Shown: piece by piece, positions 8,580-18,186 of the stretch
Numbering within the stretch: the stretch's first letter is position 1
How the letters are laid out: each line of letters starts with the position of its first letter
From: a virus
DNA length: 26,505 bases
IMG/VR virus record: IMGVR_UViG_3300017769_000103
Span: 1 to 26,505 of that record
Reading direction: 5' to 3' (one strand)
Program-made: the position numbers and the translations under genes
Notes under the pieces: model-generated
What the model saw: the letters and a program-made list of their open reading frames with translations, nothing else
Databases searched by the model: none
Told to the model about the DNA's origin: nothing

Positions 8580-10768
8580 TGCAGAAAGTAAGAATACCAC
8601 AGAATAGCTTTCAGTACGGCGAAATAAGCGACAATACTATAATGAGGACTGATAGTCCTATTTATGCTGCGTCTGCACAAAGTTTAGAAAATATGATTGT
8701 ATTGCCAGAAGGCGCAGTAAAAAAACGACATGGTGCTAAGTTTCATTATAAAAATACACAGACAAACAAAGAATTATATTTAGCTCCGTTTATATTTGAC
8801 GATAATGAAGAATATATAATCGGTATTGGTGAAGCATATATACTTTGCTGGAGAATTACTGCTAACAATAATTTAAGTTTAGTAGCTACTATTACACAAG
8901 ACACACAAAGCAATGTGCTGCCGTTTGATAAAGATTATCTACATCAATATAATACTGCGCAATATGGTGACGTTATGTTTATATGTCACCCATTGTTTGC
9001 GCCGCGTATGCTTACACGTACATCCCTTACAACTTTTGAAGTTAGTGTGTTTAGCTTTGATACAAGTTATGACAATAAAGATACATATCAACCATACAGT
9101 GTTTTTCATAGTACCAATCAAACATTAACAGCAAGTACATATACTGAAGGTAGTGGTAGAACGCTAACTGTTAGCTCTCCTTACTTTGATACAACAGGAA
9201 AACATAACAATGTTGTATTAAGATATGGTGGAAATGAAATAAGAATAGATTCAGTAACATCATCAACAGTTGCTACTGGTACTATTATAAGAGAATTATC
9301 TACTAGACTTACAGTTTCAAACCCATTGCGTACCAGAAATGGTTCAAATGTTATTGAAGTAACGCATATAAATCATGGGATAACAGGTGGTGCTACTATT
9401 GTAGTTGCAGACGCTGTAGCTGTTGGTGGCATTAATGCAAGTAATATAAATGGAACTAAATCAGTATTAACTATTTTAGACGAAAATACATATACTATTG
9501 TTTCTAGCTCTAATGCAAATGCATCCGAAGATGGTGGTGGTTTTGTTAAGATTAGCTCTAACGCAACGACTACAAGATGGGATGAACAATCTTTCTCTGC
9601 ATTGCGTGGGTATCCAGCAGCCGTAACATTTCATGAAAATAGACTATGTTTTGCTGGTACAATAGCAGAACCAGACACAATATTTATGAGTCAATTAGGT
9701 GAGTTCTTTAATTATGATGTTGGAGAAGGCGAAGATACCGAAGCTATAAACTTAGTTGCAGCAACAGGTGACGTGAATGAAATAAGATACATGAGGTCAA
9801 ATCGTGATCTACAGATCTTTACGCTGTCAGATGAGCTATATGTACCTACATATCTTAACCAAGCTATTACACCTACAAACGCGCAGATAAGAAAGCAAAC
9901 ACCATTTGGTAGTGAATTTGTTTTGCCTACTTCTATTGATGGTGCAACTATTTTTGTTGAGCGTGGCGGTAGAGCAGTGCGTGAGTATATATATTCAGAT
10001 GCAGAAGATGCTTACATATCTACAGGTGTGTCTACAGTAGCAAGTCATCTTATAATAGATCCAGTTGATATAGCTGTTGTACATTCTGGATTTAAAACTC
10101 AAGAATCTTATGCAGCTTTAGTTATGGGCAATGGCGATATGGCATTGTTTAGTTCTAACAGAGCAGAAAAACGTGCAGCTTGGACAAAAGTTACAACGCA
10201 GGGAAATTATTTAGCCGCTGCATCTGTAGGTGACAGGCTCTTCTATTATGCAAAAGATATTAATAATAACTATGTATTGTCAGAATTTGTAGATGATATA
10301 GGTTTAGATAACTATTTATATGTTGCCTATGGCAGTGGTACAGTAAGTGTAAACAGTTTATATTCTAGCGGTACAGTAGATGTTATTGGGTACGATGGTA
10401 CTAATAAAGTTTATTTAGGTGAATTTAATGTAACTGGTGGGAATATTACTATGACAGGGCATAGTAGTTATACTCATTTTTATGTAGGTAAAAAGTACAC
10501 ATCTAAAATAATAACCAATCCAGTAGACACTGTAGCAGCTAATGGGCCAGCAACAGGTGATGTACGCGGTATAAGTACAGTAGTTCTTAGCGTTAAAGAT
10601 TCTGAATCTATTAAGGTAAATAATAGATCTATTAATAATATTACTGGATTTACAGGTAACAAAGAGGTTAGGCTTTTAGGATATAGTAGAAGTCCTCAAG
10701 TTACTATTGAACAAGAAGAACCTATGCCGTTGCAGATCAATGGCTTAATATCGGAGTTGATTACATAA
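8579..10768 (+). CDS. Tail tubular protein B (gp12-like nozzle)
   Basis: This is the hexameric tail nozzle that closes the tail and to which fibres attach. It has 729 aa, near T7 gp12 (about 794). The N-terminal phrases SFQYGEISDNTIMRTDSPIY and AASAQSLENMIVLPEGAV with a KRHGAKF strand are hallmark sequences of podoviral nozzle proteins. The middle is beta-rich and includes RGYPAAVTFHENRLCFAGT and an IFTLSDELYVPTY strand, also recurrent in the family. No hydrophobic transmembrane segment or enzymatic motif is visible. It begins one base inside the previous stop and ends the same way, so tail genes 8001-11235 form one coupled unit. Confidence 0.92.
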   Translation: MQKVRIPQNSFQYGEISDNTIMRTDSPIYAASAQSLENMIVLPEGAVKKRHGAKFHYKNTQTNKELYLAPFIFDDNEEYIIGIGEAYILCWRITANNNLSLVATITQDTQSNVLPFDKDYLHQYNTAQYGDVMFICHPLFAPRMLTRTSLTTFEVSVFSFDTSYDNKDTYQPYSVFHSTNQTLTASTYTEGSGRTLTVSSPYFDTTGKHNNVVLRYGGNEIRIDSVTSSTVATGTIIRELSTRLTVSNPLRTRNGSNVIEVTHINHGITGGATIVVADAVAVGGINASNINGTKSVLTILDENTYTIVSSSNANASEDGGGFVKISSNATTTRWDEQSFSALRGYPAAVTFHENRLCFAGTIAEPDTIFMSQLGEFFNYDVGEGEDTEAINLVAATGDVNEIRYMRSNRDLQIFTLSDELYVPTYLNQAITPTNAQIRKQTPFGSEFVLPTSIDGATIFVERGGRAVREYIYSDAEDAYISTGVSTVASHLIIDPVDIAVVHSGFKTQESYAALVMGNGDMALFSSNRAEKRAAWTKVTTQGNYLAAASVGDRLFYYAKDINNNYVLSEFVDDIGLDNYLYVAYGSGTVSVNSLYSSGTVDVIGYDGTNKVYLGEFNVTGGNITMTGHSSYTHFYVGKKYTSKIITNPVDTVAANGPATGDVRGISTVVLSVKDSESIKVNNRSINNITGFTGNKEVRLLGYSRSPQVTIEQEEPMPLQINGLISELIT

Positions 10769-11235
10769 TGGCTATTTTTCAATTAATCGGTGCTTTTATG
10801 TCAGCAAAAGCTTCTATTGAGGCTGGTAAGGCTAGAGAAGATGCAGCTAGAATGGATGCATTTAATACTGAAACTGAGCGCGAGCAAGGCGAGGTACTAG
10901 CGTTACAGCAAGCAGCATCGCGTAGGTATGAATATGATTTAGCAACAGAAGCTAATGTAGCTATGTTTTATGCTAGCGGTAGAGATGTGGGTTCAGACAA
11001 GTCTGTTGAGGCTTTCTTGGCTAAACAAAAAGAAATTGCGTCAACAGATCTTAGCAGAATTGATTTCCAGAGACAGGCACAATCTAGCGCAAAAACTAGA
11101 GAAGCTATGGCTCTTCGTCGTGGCGGTAAAAATGCTAGGCGCGCTTCATTGTATCAAGCAGCTGGAACTGTAGCTTATGGGTTGCACGATTTTTCAAAAT
11201 CTATGGCACCAACACCAAAAGGAGGGACACCTTAG
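10768..11235 (+). CDS. Internal virion protein, gp14-like
   Basis: One of three ejection proteins, thought to form the outer-membrane part of the DNA channel in T7. It has 155 aa (T7 gp14 is 196). The N-terminal segment AIFQLIGAFMSAKAS is amphipathic and could insert in a membrane. Then come a long Ala/Glu/Arg helix (about residues 18-60), YASGRDVGSDKS and a basic C-terminal part (ALRRGGKNARRASLYQAAGT). These features and the position before two very large proteins, as in T7 14-15-16, support the call. It ends with GGAGGGA, which also serves as ribosome site for the next gene. Confidence 0.75.
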   Translation: MAIFQLIGAFMSAKASIEAGKAREDAARMDAFNTETEREQGEVLALQQAASRRYEYDLATEANVAMFYASGRDVGSDKSVEAFLAKQKEIASTDLSRIDFQRQAQSSAKTREAMALRRGGKNARRASLYQAAGTVAYGLHDFSKSMAPTPKGGTP

Positions 11236-14200
11236 ATGGCTGTAATCAGACAACAAACACAAGTCTTTAACAAGCCAGTTGGCGTTCGTAGAATAAATAC
11301 AGGTGAAGCTGAGTTATGGGAAACTATAAAAGCTGAAGCTGATGAGTTTACGCGCAGAGCTTACAATGATGCAGCAGAAAATGCACAAACTGTAGGTGCA
11401 GAAACAGCTATGGGCGTAGACGTAAGTAGTATTACTACGCTTGATCCGCTTACAGGTAGGCCAAAAGCTATGGTAACACCAGAAGGTATGGGTTCAATAG
11501 CTGAAAAAGCTTATAGAAATGTTATTACGCAAAGGTACGAAGACTCTATAAAAGACGAAATGAATATTAGAGCGCAAGAATTAGCGTTAAGGTATCAATA
11601 TAAACCAGAAGAATATGCAGTAGCTATGTCACAACATATAGCTTCAATGGCTGAAAATGCTGATGGCATGTATAAAACTTTTATAGAAGTGCATGGCAGC
11701 AAACAGTTAGCATCTAATAAATTGTCTTTGCAAACAGAATTAAGAGATAAAGTTAGGCTAGACGCTGGTAACTCTATTATAAAAAAAGGTACTGCAGCAG
11801 TAGAAGTTGTTACTGATTATGGTAAAGCTGGTAATTTTGAAGAAATGTTAAGCGTTATTGAAGAAAACGTAGCTAACTTTCAAAATGGCGAAGCATCTAA
11901 TTTGCTTAAAGCTGGAGCAGCAGAGGCTACACAAACAAGCTTAGAGATAGCTGGTATAAGCGGATTTGTTAGTACTTTAATTAGTCAAACAGAAAATCCT
12001 ACACAAAGAGCAGCTATTATTACTTACATAAAATCTGGTGGTGTTGTTGAAAATCACTTAGATGAAATATCAAAAGTACAGCTTAGTAAAATAAAAGATT
12101 ATTTAGATGTAAATACTATTAATGACATTGCTGTTAATGCAAGTTCATTAGCAGAATCAATGAATAGTACATTTTATAAAGTGCAAACTGCAAATAATGC
12201 AGAGCTAACAGCTAAAGCAAAAGCATTAACAGCACAAAAAAAATTAGATCTTATAAATAATAACGCAATATTTAATAATCAAACTGGAAGAATAACTAGT
12301 GAAATATCAAAACTTGTAAACTCTATTGGTGATAAAGCAATAGATGAAAGATTTGGTCGCTTAGAGGGCGAGTCATTAGATATGGTTGCGCCATTAGTCC
12401 AAGGTATTTTTGAACATTATCAAGAACAAGTTAGTGTATTAACACAACGAATGAACGCTGAAGGTAGTTTATATACACCAACAGAATTTAAAAATGATGT
12501 TAAAGCTTTAAGAGAAGCAATAATTAAACCATTATTGTTTAAAGTTGCAGATATAGCGCAAGATCAAGGAAATTTAGATTATGTTAAAGGATATATTTTT
12601 AATCCAAATCCAGAAGATTTTGCACAATTAACAAACGTACAACAAACTTTGCTAGAAACAATGGTTGGTACAGGTGTTTATGACTACAAAGCAGACAGAA
12701 CTTATATATCTAATGTGTTAACAGATGGAACAAATCAAACAGAACAAAATAAATTAGACAATCAAGAAAAATTAAAAACATTTGATTATGTCCAACAATA
12801 CTCTGTGTATGCACAATCTAATTTAATGACCAAAAATACATTAGATAAAGTTGATGCAGAGTTAAAAGGTAAAATAGGCAAGCATGGTTATACAGTAGAA
12901 GATTACACTAGAGATAGAAAGTTAATCGAAGGCAATGCCGCTGCTGGTGTAATGAGTGAATTTGCTAAAACTGCTACGTCTTCACAATTTTTAGCATTAA
13001 TACAATTTGTTGAAACAGCAACAGGGCCAAATCGTGAAGGCGATGTAAGGGGTATGACAAACACAGACGGAAGTGTACGTCAAGATGAAGTAATGCGCGC
13101 TAAAAGAATTGTAGATTTGTTAGGAAATAATGATCCTAAAGAATTTATTAGAGCTGCTGACAGTATTAAAATTAATATAAGCAATAGAGAAGATGAAGAA
13201 GAAAAAGTAAATGCACAATTAGCTTTAGAAAATACTGCAAGAACAGGTACAGGTGATAGAACAGATAAAAAATTACAAAGTGCTTCTGATACTGTTATAA
13301 ACAAAGATTATAATTTAGATGTGTCTTTATACAGCACATATAGCGATGTAGAAAAAGCTAAAATTTTAAAAGTATTACGAGGTACGCCTAGTAAAAAATT
13401 ATTAAATGGATTAGAGCAATTAATTAGTGGAGTTGAAGACCCTAACTCTCAAAGTTATTTTGAACTATTTGTAGAACTAGATAATTCTAGGATAGCTAAT
13501 GGCAAAACAGCAAGTCGTTTAAATGATGTTATGTCCGCAGCTAATTTAAGTAGACTAGATCAAATACAAAGATCAGCAAAAATTACTGGAATGCCTGTAA
13601 TTGAAATAGCACGACAGTTTGCAGAGCTTGAGCGTGATGGCGAAAGTAAAAATTTAACTGAGCATTTAGGTAAAACTCCTACTGAATTTGTTGCTGATTT
13701 TACAGATGATCCTACATTAACTAGAGATTTATTACCTGTAGTAAAAACATTATCAAGACGTGGTGATAACCCAGAAATGATAACTGATTTTATAGATAGG
13801 TATATTGAGAAAAAGTATTTAAAGTCAGAATATGTTTTAGATCCTGATGCACCATTCTCTGATAAGCAACAATCACAATACGCACTTACTTCTGTATTCC
13901 CAGATTACGGAGAAAAAATTGAGTTTGTAGCAAAGATTGAAGATTACTTAAGAGACATAGTTATACCGCAATCAGGTACAGATAGCACAGGTAAACCACT
14001 ACCTGATTTAAGATTTTCCATGCATGCTGATAAATTTGCGCGAGCTGGCTCACTTGGTACACAGTACGAAGGTTTTTCAAGTGAAAGAGATGTTAGCTAC
14101 GCAAAGGAAACAGCAGAAAAAAGACAAATATTTTTAATACCAAACCCAAATACCAATGAAATATCGTATGTTCCAGTTTATAAAACATTTGATGAAAATG

Positions 14201-14430
14201 ATAATCCTACTGGTATAAAATATTTACTTACAGAAGATGAAGAAGGATTGTTTCTTGCTGAATTTAATACAAAACTAACTGCTGAATACAGAGAGAATCG
14301 TAAAATACAAGAAGATATTATAGAAAAACAACAAATACGTGCAAGTCAAGACGCAGCTAAAAATGAAATAGAAATAAAAGATAGGGTTAAAGAATTTGGA
14401 CCTATGGCTAAACCAAACAATATTAAATAA
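11236..14430 (+). CDS. Internal virion protein, gp15-like (1064 aa)
   Basis: It is a large helical ejection protein expected to form the periplasmic tunnel with its partners. At 1064 aa it is longer than T7 gp15 (747). It starts after an excellent GGAGGGA ribosome site at 11221-11227. The composition is rich in Ala, Glu, Lys, Asn with long helices; a clear N-terminal phrase is EADEFTRRAYNDAAENAQ. There is no strong transmembrane segment and no transglycosylase or protease motif that I can see. Codon use is more AT-rich than in the head genes. Assignment rests on size, order and composition more than on recognisable sequence. Confidence 0.7.
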   Translation: MAVIRQQTQVFNKPVGVRRINTGEAELWETIKAEADEFTRRAYNDAAENAQTVGAETAMGVDVSSITTLDPLTGRPKAMVTPEGMGSIAEKAYRNVITQRYEDSIKDEMNIRAQELALRYQYKPEEYAVAMSQHIASMAENADGMYKTFIEVHGSKQLASNKLSLQTELRDKVRLDAGNSIIKKGTAAVEVVTDYGKAGNFEEMLSVIEENVANFQNGEASNLLKAGAAEATQTSLEIAGISGFVSTLISQTENPTQRAAIITYIKSGGVVENHLDEISKVQLSKIKDYLDVNTINDIAVNASSLAESMNSTFYKVQTANNAELTAKAKALTAQKKLDLINNNAIFNNQTGRITSEISKLVNSIGDKAIDERFGRLEGESLDMVAPLVQGIFEHYQEQVSVLTQRMNAEGSLYTPTEFKNDVKALREAIIKPLLFKVADIAQDQGNLDYVKGYIFNPNPEDFAQLTNVQQTLLETMVGTGVYDYKADRTYISNVLTDGTNQTEQNKLDNQEKLKTFDYVQQYSVYAQSNLMTKNTLDKVDAELKGKIGKHGYTVEDYTRDRKLIEGNAAAGVMSEFAKTATSSQFLALIQFVETATGPNREGDVRGMTNTDGSVRQDEVMRAKRIVDLLGNNDPKEFIRAADSIKINISNREDEEEKVNAQLALENTARTGTGDRTDKKLQSASDTVINKDYNLDVSLYSTYSDVEKAKILKVLRGTPSKKLLNGLEQLISGVEDPNSQSYFELFVELDNSRIANGKTASRLNDVMSAANLSRLDQIQRSAKITGMPVIEIARQFAELERDGESKNLTEHLGKTPTEFVADFTDDPTLTRDLLPVVKTLSRRGDNPEMITDFIDRYIEKKYLKSEYVLDPDAPFSDKQQSQYALTSVFPDYGEKIEFVAKIEDYLRDIVIPQSGTDSTGKPLPDLRFSMHADKFARAGSLGTQYEGFSSERDVSYAKETAEKRQIFLIPNPNTNEISYVPVYKTFDENDNPTGIKYLLTEDEEGLFLAEFNTKLTAEYRENRKIQEDIIEKQQIRASQDAAKNEIEIKDRVKEFGPMAKPNNIK

Positions 14431-14445
14431 TAGGACTAAATAATT

Positions 14446-17400
14446 ATGGTAGATAATGCATTTACTACATTAAAAAATTTATCACCAACAAATGCAAATT
14501 TAGGTGCGCCAGAACCTAGTTGGAGCAAACTAATTGGTGCAAGCTTAGAAGATAAGTATGCATCTTCTGTAAATTTTCTTAATGAACAAATTAAATTTGG
14601 GTTTGATCCTAAAAACAAAGACCCAAATTTTAATGCAATCGACCATATACCAGAAGGTTTAGAAAAATATACACATCATTTAATTAGTGCTGAAAATGCA
14701 GACCAATTAACTTTTAAGGTAAACAATTTATATAGAGCGTTAAAAGTTGATGAAACATTAAGTAGAGCTAGCTTTGGTGCGCTTGCAATAAGTGAATTTG
14801 TTGACCCTATAAATTATATTTCTCTGCCTCTACGTGCTGCTAAGACTATTGGTGGTGGCTTTAGGGCTGGTGCTATATCAACTGGTGGCGTTGCTGTTGC
14901 GCAAGAAGCTATTAGATACCCTATTGATCCTACTGTTACTGCTGCTGAGTCAGGATTAAATATTGCAGCCTCTACAATTTTTGGTGGCGCAATAAATAGT
15001 ATGGTAAGCATACCAGCTGCAAGAAGATTTAAAGCAACACAAGATGCAGAAGTTGAAATAGGCGAGTTAAACAAAGCATTAAAAGGCGATGGCGTACAAG
15101 CAACTGCTGTTGCTGGTGGCCCAGATGCAACTATACCAGAGAATATATTTACTGATTCTTGGATATATAAATCAGCTACAACTCCTATGAAGCGAATATT
15201 AACTAATCCAAATATACCTAATGACGTTAAATTAGATACGTTAGCCATTGCTAATGATTCTGGTATTTTATTGTCTGCAAATAAAAAGGGACAAAAGATA
15301 GGTAACTCAGTATTTCAAAATGCAAAGTTACACCAAGGCACATGGGTAAAAGCATATGATGAAATAGCAACTATATGGGGTGAGTCTACAGGATCAGGTG
15401 TTTCAAAACCTTTAGACTACATGACAAAGCGTAAATCATTTGAAGAGTGGGTAACAGAAGTAGATGGAAAAGCTATACGCGGAGAAAAACCAATTAATGA
15501 TTTCGAAGCACGCGCTATGCAAAAGCTTAATGAATTTTATGACGAGTGGGAAGTACGCTTAAAAGATGAAGGTCTTATTGGCAGCGAAGGTTATTATAAA
15601 AAGTATATGTTAGACCGAGAAGCTAGGTTAAAAGCTGCAGAAATCAGACTAGCTAATGCAAAAACTACAGTACATGCTAAAAATATTGGCACACAGATTG
15701 ATAGATTTAAAAAAGAAATAGCAGAAACTAAGCAGCAGTTAGATGATTTAGGTGCAATGGGTAAATTAACTCCACCTAATGAAGATATATTTAGACCGCG
15801 CTATTGGGATTTTTCTGCAATTGAAGCTAACAGACCAGAGTTTGAAAAGATTTTAGCTAAGTGGTATCAAAGCAATCCAGAGACATATACTAAATTACCT
15901 AATGGTAAATGGGGTAAAGTTAAAATGTCATCAAGCCCTGACGCTATAGCTAAAAGGGTTAAGGATACAGTCGATAGAATGTTAAACGATCCTGATCCTC
16001 TTGATCCTGATAAGATGTTTTATGGTGTTGGTAAGTCAAAGCACTTTAAACATAGGGCATTAGACATACCTAATAGATTAGTGCTTGATTACATGCAGCG
16101 TAATCCAATTAGCATTATGAAAGCCTACACACAAAAGACATCAGGTCGTTATGAGTTTTCTAAAAAGTTTGGTGGCGGCTCAATAGATGACGTACTAGAT
16201 GGCACATATGATAAGATGATGGATGCTGGTGCTAGCATTGACGAAATAAGAGCAGCACAAAAAGAACAAAGAATACTTTATGATAGAGTTGTAGGGTCTG
16301 TTCTCAGAAGGCCAGATGCAATGAATCAAGGAGTTGCTAGATTATTAAGATCAGCAGCACAACTTAGTTACCTTGGTGGTGCGGTATTAGCTACTATTAC
16401 AGAGCCAGCAAAGATTGTAATGGAGCATGGGTTTGCACCTACAATGAAAGGCTTGTTTTCTGTGCTTGATAAAAACGCATTGAAAATGGGTGGCCTAGAA
16501 ATACGCGCAGCTGGTGAAGCATTAGAAAGATTGCTTGGTAACGTGCAAATGCGTTTGTCTGAAGATTTAAACAACAATCCTTTTCGTGGCGATTACTTAG
16601 ATAAAGCTACAGATGCTTTCTTTACTTTAAATGGATTGGGCCCAGTGACCAGGATATTAAAAGATTTTGATGGTATGATGCGCAGCCATACTCTTATAGA
16701 TTATTCTGTGCGTTGGGCTGATCCTGATAAAAAAATTACTAAGATGGAAAAGGAATATCTTCTTAGATACAACATAGACGAAGCTGACGCTAAAAGAATA
16801 GCTAAATCTAATTGGGAAAAGACAGACAGTGGTTTGTATATGGCTAATACAGAAGAATGGGCGCAGCCTGATCTTGCAAAAATAAAAGTTGATATGGCTA
16901 AAACATACAAAATATCACGCAAGCCATTAAGTAAAATGACAGAAAAAGAATTGTTAAATAGATTTGGCAAAGAATTTTATGTTGGTAGAATTATAACAGA
17001 TCAAAAAATTGTTGATGATGTCTTTAAACGAAGAGGTTACGAAGGTAACTTAGGGTTAGCTTTTACAGACGCACCAGATCCAGCATCAGTTCTTATAAAT
17101 ATAAGAGCAATAAAAGAAGCGTATAATAAACCAACTGGAAAAGTAAACGAAGATGCAATGATAGCTAAATTAGATAATGATTTAGCAAGTGGTAAGTTAA
17201 CTGAAGAACAATATAGGCATCATGTTACTTATGTTAAAAATATAGATTTAATGGATAGCGAAGAAGAATTTATAAACTTTATTCTTATGCATGAATTACA
17301 TCACACAACAAAACCAATACGTGCTGGTGAATCTGTACCAGATTATGAACAAAGAATTGACGAGGAAGCTTTTAAATACATTAGAAATGAAAAAGAATCT

Positions 17401-18186
17401 GGCTTACAACTTGCAGCTGAAAAAGAATACAGCAGACAAATGCAAGAAGCTGATGAAACAGTGCAAACATTCCGCAATGCATTAGGTTCTGGTGTAATGA
17501 ATACTATACTTATGGGTACGCCAGCAGATAAACCAACTATTACGGATGGCATTGTATATATACCAATGCGTGTAGCAAGTAAGTTTGGTATGAAAGAAGA
17601 CCCTGTAAACAAAGGCTATGCGCGTATTGAGAATGGTATGCTTGGATTGCCGTTTCAGTTTTACAGCTACGCACTAGCTGCTGTTAACAAAACTATGGGT
17701 GCATATGCACATGGTCAGGTAAAAAGTAAATACATTGGAGCGTCATTAGCTCTAGGTTTAGGATACATGACGCTTAATCTTAAAACTCCTGATTGGGTTG
17801 AGATGTCATATCAAGACAAATTCCTTAGATCTTTAGATTACTCTGGGTTAATGCCAATAATGACAGATATGTTTTATACAGGCATGACTACAGCACTAGC
17901 ATTAGGTGGGCCAAATGTAACTGGCGGTGCAATACAGCCTAAGTTCCCACAAAAACCAGATACAGGTGAAGCTATTACTGGTATTCTTGGTGCTGGCCCG
18001 AGCTATGGGCTAGATATGTATAGAAATATGGCTGAGTTAGTTACTGGAGATGTTGGTAAAGGCACAAGTGATTTGATTGGCGACCTACCATTTATGAATA
18101 TATTCTGGTTAAGAGGTTTAGTTAATGATTTCCGCAAGTTTGCTAAAGATGAAATAGATATGCCTAGAGGTATAGGTGGGTTCTAA
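14446..18186 (+). CDS. Large ejection protein, gp16-like, with HExxH metalloprotease-like insertion
   Basis: This 1246-aa protein is the expected third ejectosome component, delivered into the host envelope first. Residues 1-120 are soluble. A hydrophobic Gly/Ala/Ile-rich stretch lies near 125-185, and a second (LSYLGGAVLATIT, around 638-650) may interact with membrane. The family backbone reaches ANTEEWAQ (about 800-806) and resumes at VQTFRNALGSGV (from 1006), followed by TPADKP. Between them an insertion contains HELHH at residues 949-953, an exact HExxH zinc site, with IDEEAF (E974) as plausible third ligand, as in gluzincin-type peptidases. I see no lytic-transglycosylase motif at the N-terminus, unlike T7 gp16. 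The stop is followed by the fibre promoter-like leader. Role: ejection; protease activity is inference. Confidence 0.8.
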   Translation: MVDNAFTTLKNLSPTNANLGAPEPSWSKLIGASLEDKYASSVNFLNEQIKFGFDPKNKDPNFNAIDHIPEGLEKYTHHLISAENADQLTFKVNNLYRALKVDETLSRASFGALAISEFVDPINYISLPLRAAKTIGGGFRAGAISTGGVAVAQEAIRYPIDPTVTAAESGLNIAASTIFGGAINSMVSIPAARRFKATQDAEVEIGELNKALKGDGVQATAVAGGPDATIPENIFTDSWIYKSATTPMKRILTNPNIPNDVKLDTLAIANDSGILLSANKKGQKIGNSVFQNAKLHQGTWVKAYDEIATIWGESTGSGVSKPLDYMTKRKSFEEWVTEVDGKAIRGEKPINDFEARAMQKLNEFYDEWEVRLKDEGLIGSEGYYKKYMLDREARLKAAEIRLANAKTTVHAKNIGTQIDRFKKEIAETKQQLDDLGAMGKLTPPNEDIFRPRYWDFSAIEANRPEFEKILAKWYQSNPETYTKLPNGKWGKVKMSSSPDAIAKRVKDTVDRMLNDPDPLDPDKMFYGVGKSKHFKHRALDIPNRLVLDYMQRNPISIMKAYTQKTSGRYEFSKKFGGGSIDDVLDGTYDKMMDAGASIDEIRAAQKEQRILYDRVVGSVLRRPDAMNQGVARLLRSAAQLSYLGGAVLATITEPAKIVMEHGFAPTMKGLFSVLDKNALKMGGLEIRAAGEALERLLGNVQMRLSEDLNNNPFRGDYLDKATDAFFTLNGLGPVTRILKDFDGMMRSHTLIDYSVRWADPDKKITKMEKEYLLRYNIDEADAKRIAKSNWEKTDSGLYMANTEEWAQPDLAKIKVDMAKTYKISRKPLSKMTEKELLNRFGKEFYVGRIITDQKIVDDVFKRRGYEGNLGLAFTDAPDPASVLINIRAIKEAYNKPTGKVNEDAMIAKLDNDLASGKLTEEQYRHHVTYVKNIDLMDSEEEFINFILMHELHHTTKPIRAGESVPDYEQRIDEEAFKYIRNEKESGLQLAAEKEYSRQMQEADETVQTFRNALGSGVMNTILMGTPADKPTITDGIVYIPMRVASKFGMKEDPVNKGYARIENGMLGLPFQFYSYALAAVNKTMGAYAHGQVKSKYIGASLALGLGYMTLNLKTPDWVEMSYQDKFLRSLDYSGLMPIMTDMFYTGMTTALALGGPNVTGGAIQPKFPQKPDTGEAITGILGAGPSYGLDMYRNMAELVTGDVGKGTSDLIGDLPFMNIFWLRGLVNDFRKFAKDEIDMPRGIGGF

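Follow-up and report, generated by a model that had tools for sequence, protein, structure and literature searches.

A putative zincin-like peptidase cassette in a fixed insertion slot of a T7 gp16-like phage ejection protein

The large ejection protein encoded in the window (the whole stretch of marine phage DNA analysed, 26,505 nucleotides, IMG/VR record IMGVR_UViG_3300017769_000103) was found to carry an inserted domain at residues 806-1005. In related phages the same site is either empty or occupied by a cassette of this kind in one of two divergent forms, the putative catalytic residues are conserved in every carrier and the cassette is under purifying selection. From the sequence and the predicted structure we strongly infer that it is a zincin-like peptidase. 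The reading that we prefer, and to which about even weight is given, is that the cassette is a catalytically competent accessory payload which is delivered with the genome and cleaves a host protein. The features on which the analysis is based are as follows.

10768 to 11235, + strand: gp14-like internal virion protein, 155 aa (PHROG 418 internal virion protein, E 0.009, plus gene order)
11236 to 14430, + strand: gp15-like ejection protein, 1064 aa (by position, conserved in relatives; without a family match)
14446 to 18186, + strand: large ejection (internal virion, T7 gp16-like) protein, 1246 aa (PHROG 342 and gene order)
16843 to 16860, + strand: N-side junction ANTEEW, residues 800-805 (conserved in carriers; aligns with the N-side of the empty site in non-carriers)
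16861 to 17460, + strand: inserted zincin-like peptidase cassette (putative), long form, residues 806-1005 (block absent in relatives; AF2 model)
16981 to 17097, + strand: predicted three-strand core, strands 846-850, 870-873 and 880-884 (AF2 secondary structure)
17290 to 17304, + strand: HELHH, residues 949-953, with putative zinc ligands H949 and H953 and putative catalytic base E950 (motif conservation; end of predicted helix 939-953)
17344 to 17370, + strand: YEQRIDEEA, residues 967-975, with E968 (17347-17349) as putative third zinc ligand (invariant alignment column; predicted helix 964-980)
17461 to 17484, + strand: C-side junction VQTFRNAL, residues 1006-1013 (alignment with relatives)

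On family match and gene order, the 1246-aa ORF is an ejection protein of the T7 gp16/PHROG 342 type. The profile of PHROG 342 ('internal virion protein with endolysin domain') matched residues 51-811 with an E of 1.4e-28, the match beginning at profile position 248. The genes of the window run from tail tubular A/B through the gp14-like and gp15-like genes to the 1246-aa ORF and then to the tail fibre, and the relatives share this order. The gp15-like protein was not matched by any Pfam family and only weakly by PHROG. A single hydrophobic stretch is present in the 1246-aa protein (residues 171-189), from which the membrane side is not predictable. In short-tailed phages the ejection proteins exit the capsid together with the genome (PMC8954989), and judging from its family the 1246-aa protein would likewise be packaged in the virion and ejected. 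The only relative of the ejection protein in the genome contig collection was a copy of this phage group lacking the insert, located in a metagenome-assembled genome binned as Euryarchaeota (locus L211, PBGS01000051.1), which is probably a misbinned phage contig.

The original prediction had suggested that the domain was inserted between flanks that are adjacent in relatives, and both parts were borne out; the insertion is a block that spans residues 806-1005 (nt 16861-17460), its ends differing by only a few bases from those predicted. In the 1246-aa ORF the landmark ANTEEWAQ occupies residues 800-807, HELHH residues 949-953, and VQTFRN starts at residue 1006. Alignment has shown that residues 806-1005 are missing and the flanks joined in Pelagibacter phage Hodr, Vibrio phages 284E43-1 and CKB-S2, TL-2011b and ctHz2215, and the tblastn alignments of most annotated relatives end at residue 805. 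Among 80 IMG/VR loci, which were retrieved with patterns lying outside the insert, the flank-to-flank gap was only 5-8 residues in 16; one locus with the empty slot (L057) is 66% identical to the window in the N flank and 70% in the C flank. A profile search found no second copy of the cassette elsewhere in those IMG/VR loci, which are partial contigs, and the cassette alone gave no tblastn match against annotated phages. Of the 600-nt stretches sampled along the gene, the one richest in A+T (G+C 0.31) coincides with the insert.

The carriers were found to contain either a long form of 200-208 aa, to which the window belongs, or a short form of 131-148 aa, a few being longer through extra inserts. 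The two forms are only about 20-25% identical; they are nevertheless homologous, with hhalign values of 98% and E of 1.3e-14 and 4.2e-14 in two comparisons. Some proteins of this group show combined architectures. In L198 (896-5527) one slot contains two segments, first one that resembles the short form but lacks HExxH and then a long form with HELHH. In L093 (6965-11233) a segment of about 235 aa is nested in the short cassette, between HEIMH and YENAI; it contains YFVHYT...G...VMYFTND, which we take to be reminiscent of ADP-ribosyltransferases, an identity for which Pfam gave no support. L109 (311-5110, 1600 aa) and L141 (137-5137, 1667 aa) hold an N-terminal lysozyme and a zincin cassette in one chain, the lysozyme matching PF16754 (E 2.8e-35) in the former and PF00959 (E 3.6e-4, slightly below its cut-off) in the latter.

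The HELHH motif at residues 949-953 of the gp16-like protein had been pointed out beforehand; in a protein of this composition about 0.011 HExxH motifs would be expected by chance. HExxH was present in 64 of 64 distinct inserts in the first set and in 79 of 79 in the extended set. The gluzincin-like arrangement proposed earlier was upheld in that HExxH and a downstream Glu occur in every carrier, but the Glu is not the one that had been named. Of the 79 inserts, 58 have Leu and 13 have Met in the column of E974 (IDEEAF), by which this residue was ruled out as third zinc ligand. The conserved acidic residue is E968 (YEQRI), located 15 residues past H953 in a motif common to both forms, [Y/V/N]-E-x-x-I-[N/D]. 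Its column is invariant across the long and short forms (alignment A6, 24 members), and this alignment is the independent evidence for E968, since the search pattern behind the sets of 64 and 79 inserts demanded the Glu. The spacing between HExxH and the Glu motif is variable, with extra inserts at this position in L041, L045 and L093; in the first two, about 49 additional residues lie between HExxH and YENAI. Variable inserts between the two helices are also described for polyvalent-protein MPTases (Iyer et al., PMC5512222).

The AF2 model of residues 800-1013, built with 24 sequences, was confident (pLDDT 91.2, pTM 0.87) and has predicted three strands, then the helix 939-953 ending in HELHH, and then the helix 964-980 with E968. 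The model of the short form (pLDDT 86.1) has the same ending of sheet, HExxH helix and Glu helix. The confident model, with its zincin-like order of elements, fits the expectation of a zincin structure, but fold searching gave no support for it. Foldseek against the PDB gave no significant zincin match for the long or the short model, the lone zinc peptidase among its PDB matches being 3lmc (E 1.2), and against BFVD nothing significant was retrieved with the long model, the best match being a 1325-aa uncharacterised phage protein (E 5.9e-3). A profile-based sequence search of the PDB also gave nothing significant. The zincin fold is therefore inferred from the motif and the element order. No metallopeptidase family in Pfam, NCBIfam or PHROGs matched the cassette above cut-off. 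Below cut-off, DUF4344 (a putative metallopeptidase) was detected in 4 of 24 cassette members (best E 0.011) and Peptidase_M91 in 1 of 24 (E 0.067), and the best match of any member to PF18818 (MPTase-PolyVal) had an E of 0.066 and 13.7 bits against a cut-off of 27.5; the window's own domain had no Pfam match to PF18818.

The absent, short and long states interchange repeatedly on the tree of the C-terminal flank. At least 10 changes among the three states were counted on its 64 rows (shuffled mean 17.9), and 3 for presence or absence alone, these counts being approximate as the tree came from a quick search and has several long branches. An empty locus (L057) and a short-form locus (L093) are sisters on this tree with an SH-aLRT of 96. 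Exchange is also seen at the level of DNA within the domain, where a 98%-identical sister phage changes to another allele: L003 shares 95-100% identity with the window as far as approximately residue 850, beyond which it is about 62% identical inside the domain, where it resembles L055, its contig stopping at residue 916. In the comparison of the window with L002, dN/dS was about 0.30 in the insert (dN 0.0285, dS 0.0954), 0.05 in the N part (dN 0.0053, dS 0.1172) and 0.02 in the C part (dN 0.0018, dS 0.0784). For 41 short-form pairs the median dN/dS of the insert was 0.087, compared with 0.041 and 0.062 for the two flanks. The values of the insert are above those of the flanks yet low, which shows that purifying selection acts on the cassette and that it changes more rapidly than the sequence around it.

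In the mechanism that we prefer, the gp16-like ejection protein would enter the cell alongside the genome, as its family suggests, with the cassette in the slot of its C-terminal half. The cassette, which may bind zinc through H949, H953 and E968 and use E950 as the base, would then cut a host protein such as an early defence or housekeeping factor. Changing host pressure may in turn lead to the cassette being gained, lost, or replaced by other alleles or by the second cassette type. An accessory, host-directed peptidase is favoured because the cassette is dispensable in close relatives, swapped between divergent forms and fast-evolving, and its putative catalytic residues are invariant.

The main rival, which we consider unlikely but a good deal closer than the others, is that of an autoprocessing peptidase which cuts the ejection protein itself or the gp14/gp15 proteins that partner it, either inside the capsid or once ejected, and so releases a part or matures the ejectosome. 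A domain within a long chain could cut in cis, self-processing has been proposed for polyvalent-protein MPTases by Iyer et al. (PMC5512222), who named host attack as another possible function of these domains, and P1 DdrB is processed prior to packaging (PMC5512222). N4 virion RNAP, on the other hand, is packaged unprocessed (PMC5512222). In close relatives whose flanks are 66-70% identical the domain is missing and the architecture is unchanged, which argues that processing is not generally needed, and the exchange of the cassette between divergent forms also speaks against this role. The repeated loss and exchange are the reason why the accessory, host-directed role is favoured over ejectosome maturation, a choice which the sequence cannot decide.

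A displaced homologue of the cassette bears on a further alternative. In Hodr and pelagiphage-type relatives, a cassette homologue is located near residues 238-375 of the ejection protein, with KKE[V/I] replacing HExxH; it is related to the short form with an hhalign value of 99% (E 2.8e-19). Both histidines are absent in every Hodr-type relative checked (11 relatives, L008 and L200-L210 being listed, with one contig stopping inside the domain). As the copy is kept despite the loss of both histidines, a domain of this family need not be catalytic to persist. The cassette could accordingly be viewed as a structural or binding module, in which a zincin fold helps in assembly, in docking or in crossing the membrane, with catalysis reduced to a minor role or gone, and the segment without HExxH beside the long form in L198 is in line with this. 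We regard this reading as improbable, since every carrier of the slot keeps HExxH and E968 and the domain is dispensable there. Still less probable is that the cassette is an HExxH enzyme with a non-peptidase activity, such as one of the alpha-ketoglutarate-dependent HExxH type. HExxH is found in such enzymes, this option has been left open for the HExxH domain of N4 (PMC12633501) and the zincin fold match was not significant; but a Glu on the next helix is the gluzincin/MPTase pattern, and three metallopeptidase families (DUF4344, MPTase-PolyVal and M91) are among the weak Pfam matches obtained for cassette members. A peptidoglycan peptidase substituting for the missing transglycosylase of gp16, which would suit the finding that Pfam shows no murein hydrolase domain in the gp15-like and gp16-like proteins of the window, is very improbable and was rejected because L109 and L141 carry a lysozyme together with the cassette in one polypeptide, contrary to the original prediction of a protease present instead of the lytic transglycosylase, and the tested non-carriers L057 and L072 also have no lysozyme in their gp15-like proteins.

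If the cassette is a host-directed accessory peptidase, its significance would extend beyond one protein. The usual view of ejection proteins is that of a conduit for DNA, with a murein hydrolase in some phages. A peptidase cassette gained, lost and swapped at one site suggests that the ejection protein also delivers enzymes for the first minutes of infection. A wider and more tentative proposal is that the C-terminal half of the gp16-like protein of marine podoviruses is a hypervariable cargo slot, in which protease-like effector cassettes, perhaps with nested domains as in L093, are recombined and delivered with the genome. If true, phages with this slot would carry a protein-effector payload comparable to injected-effector systems and matched to host defences. 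The natural series of empty, short, long and histidine-less states makes the role of MPTases in virion proteins, self-processing or host attack, directly testable.

Zincin-like domains in delivered phage and plasmid proteins are known already. No description was found in the open-access literature that was searched of a gp16-like slot that is empty or filled by two exchangeable zincin-like cassettes, or of the displaced histidine-less pelagiphage copies; 'internal virion protein' and 'metallopeptidase' were only co-mentioned there, the terms applying to different genes, and the text of Iyer et al. (PMC5512222) does not mention gp16, 'T7-like', 'internal virion' or Pelagibacter. The polyvalent-protein MPTase (PF18818; Iyer et al. 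2017, PMC5512222), which includes ArdC of IncW plasmids, resembles the cassette in its small sheet, HExxH helix and Glu helix, in its location inside long proteins of mobile elements that are delivered with DNA, in sometimes occurring in more than one copy per protein and in the variable inserts between both helices. The cassette differs in being all-or-none in a fixed gp16-like slot, in having two exchangeable forms and in scoring below the PF18818 cut-off. Against the ArdC profile hhalign gave 52% for the long form, 26% for the short form and 43% for both, with the HExxH columns aligned, and 26% for the N4 domain used as calibrator, which Iyer et al. placed in one group with ArdC (PMC5512222). 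By this profile comparison, the cassette stands no further from ArdC than the N4 domain does, but this falls short of assigning it to a named family.

The C1 domain of N4 virion RNA polymerase (Schitoviridae gp50) offers a precedent, being likewise an internal HExxH domain in a virion protein that is ejected into the host (PMC12633501, PMC5512222). Unlike the cassette, it is fused to an RNA polymerase, is not a gp16-like insertion and has no homology to the cassette detectable by hhalign (2.8-6.6%). Pelagibacter phage EXVC031P Hodr (WDQ27578.1) has a homologous ejection protein containing a cassette homologue, whereas its copy is displaced and without both histidines and the site corresponding to the slot of the window is empty. 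T7 gp16 belongs to the same family (PHROG 342) as the window protein, and both are placed after gp14-like and gp15-like genes. In case of T7 gp16, an N-terminal transglycosylase is present and no zincin is described in the literature consulted (PMC8954989), whereas the window protein lacks this N-terminal lytic transglycosylase according to Pfam and carries the zincin-like cassette in its C-terminal half.
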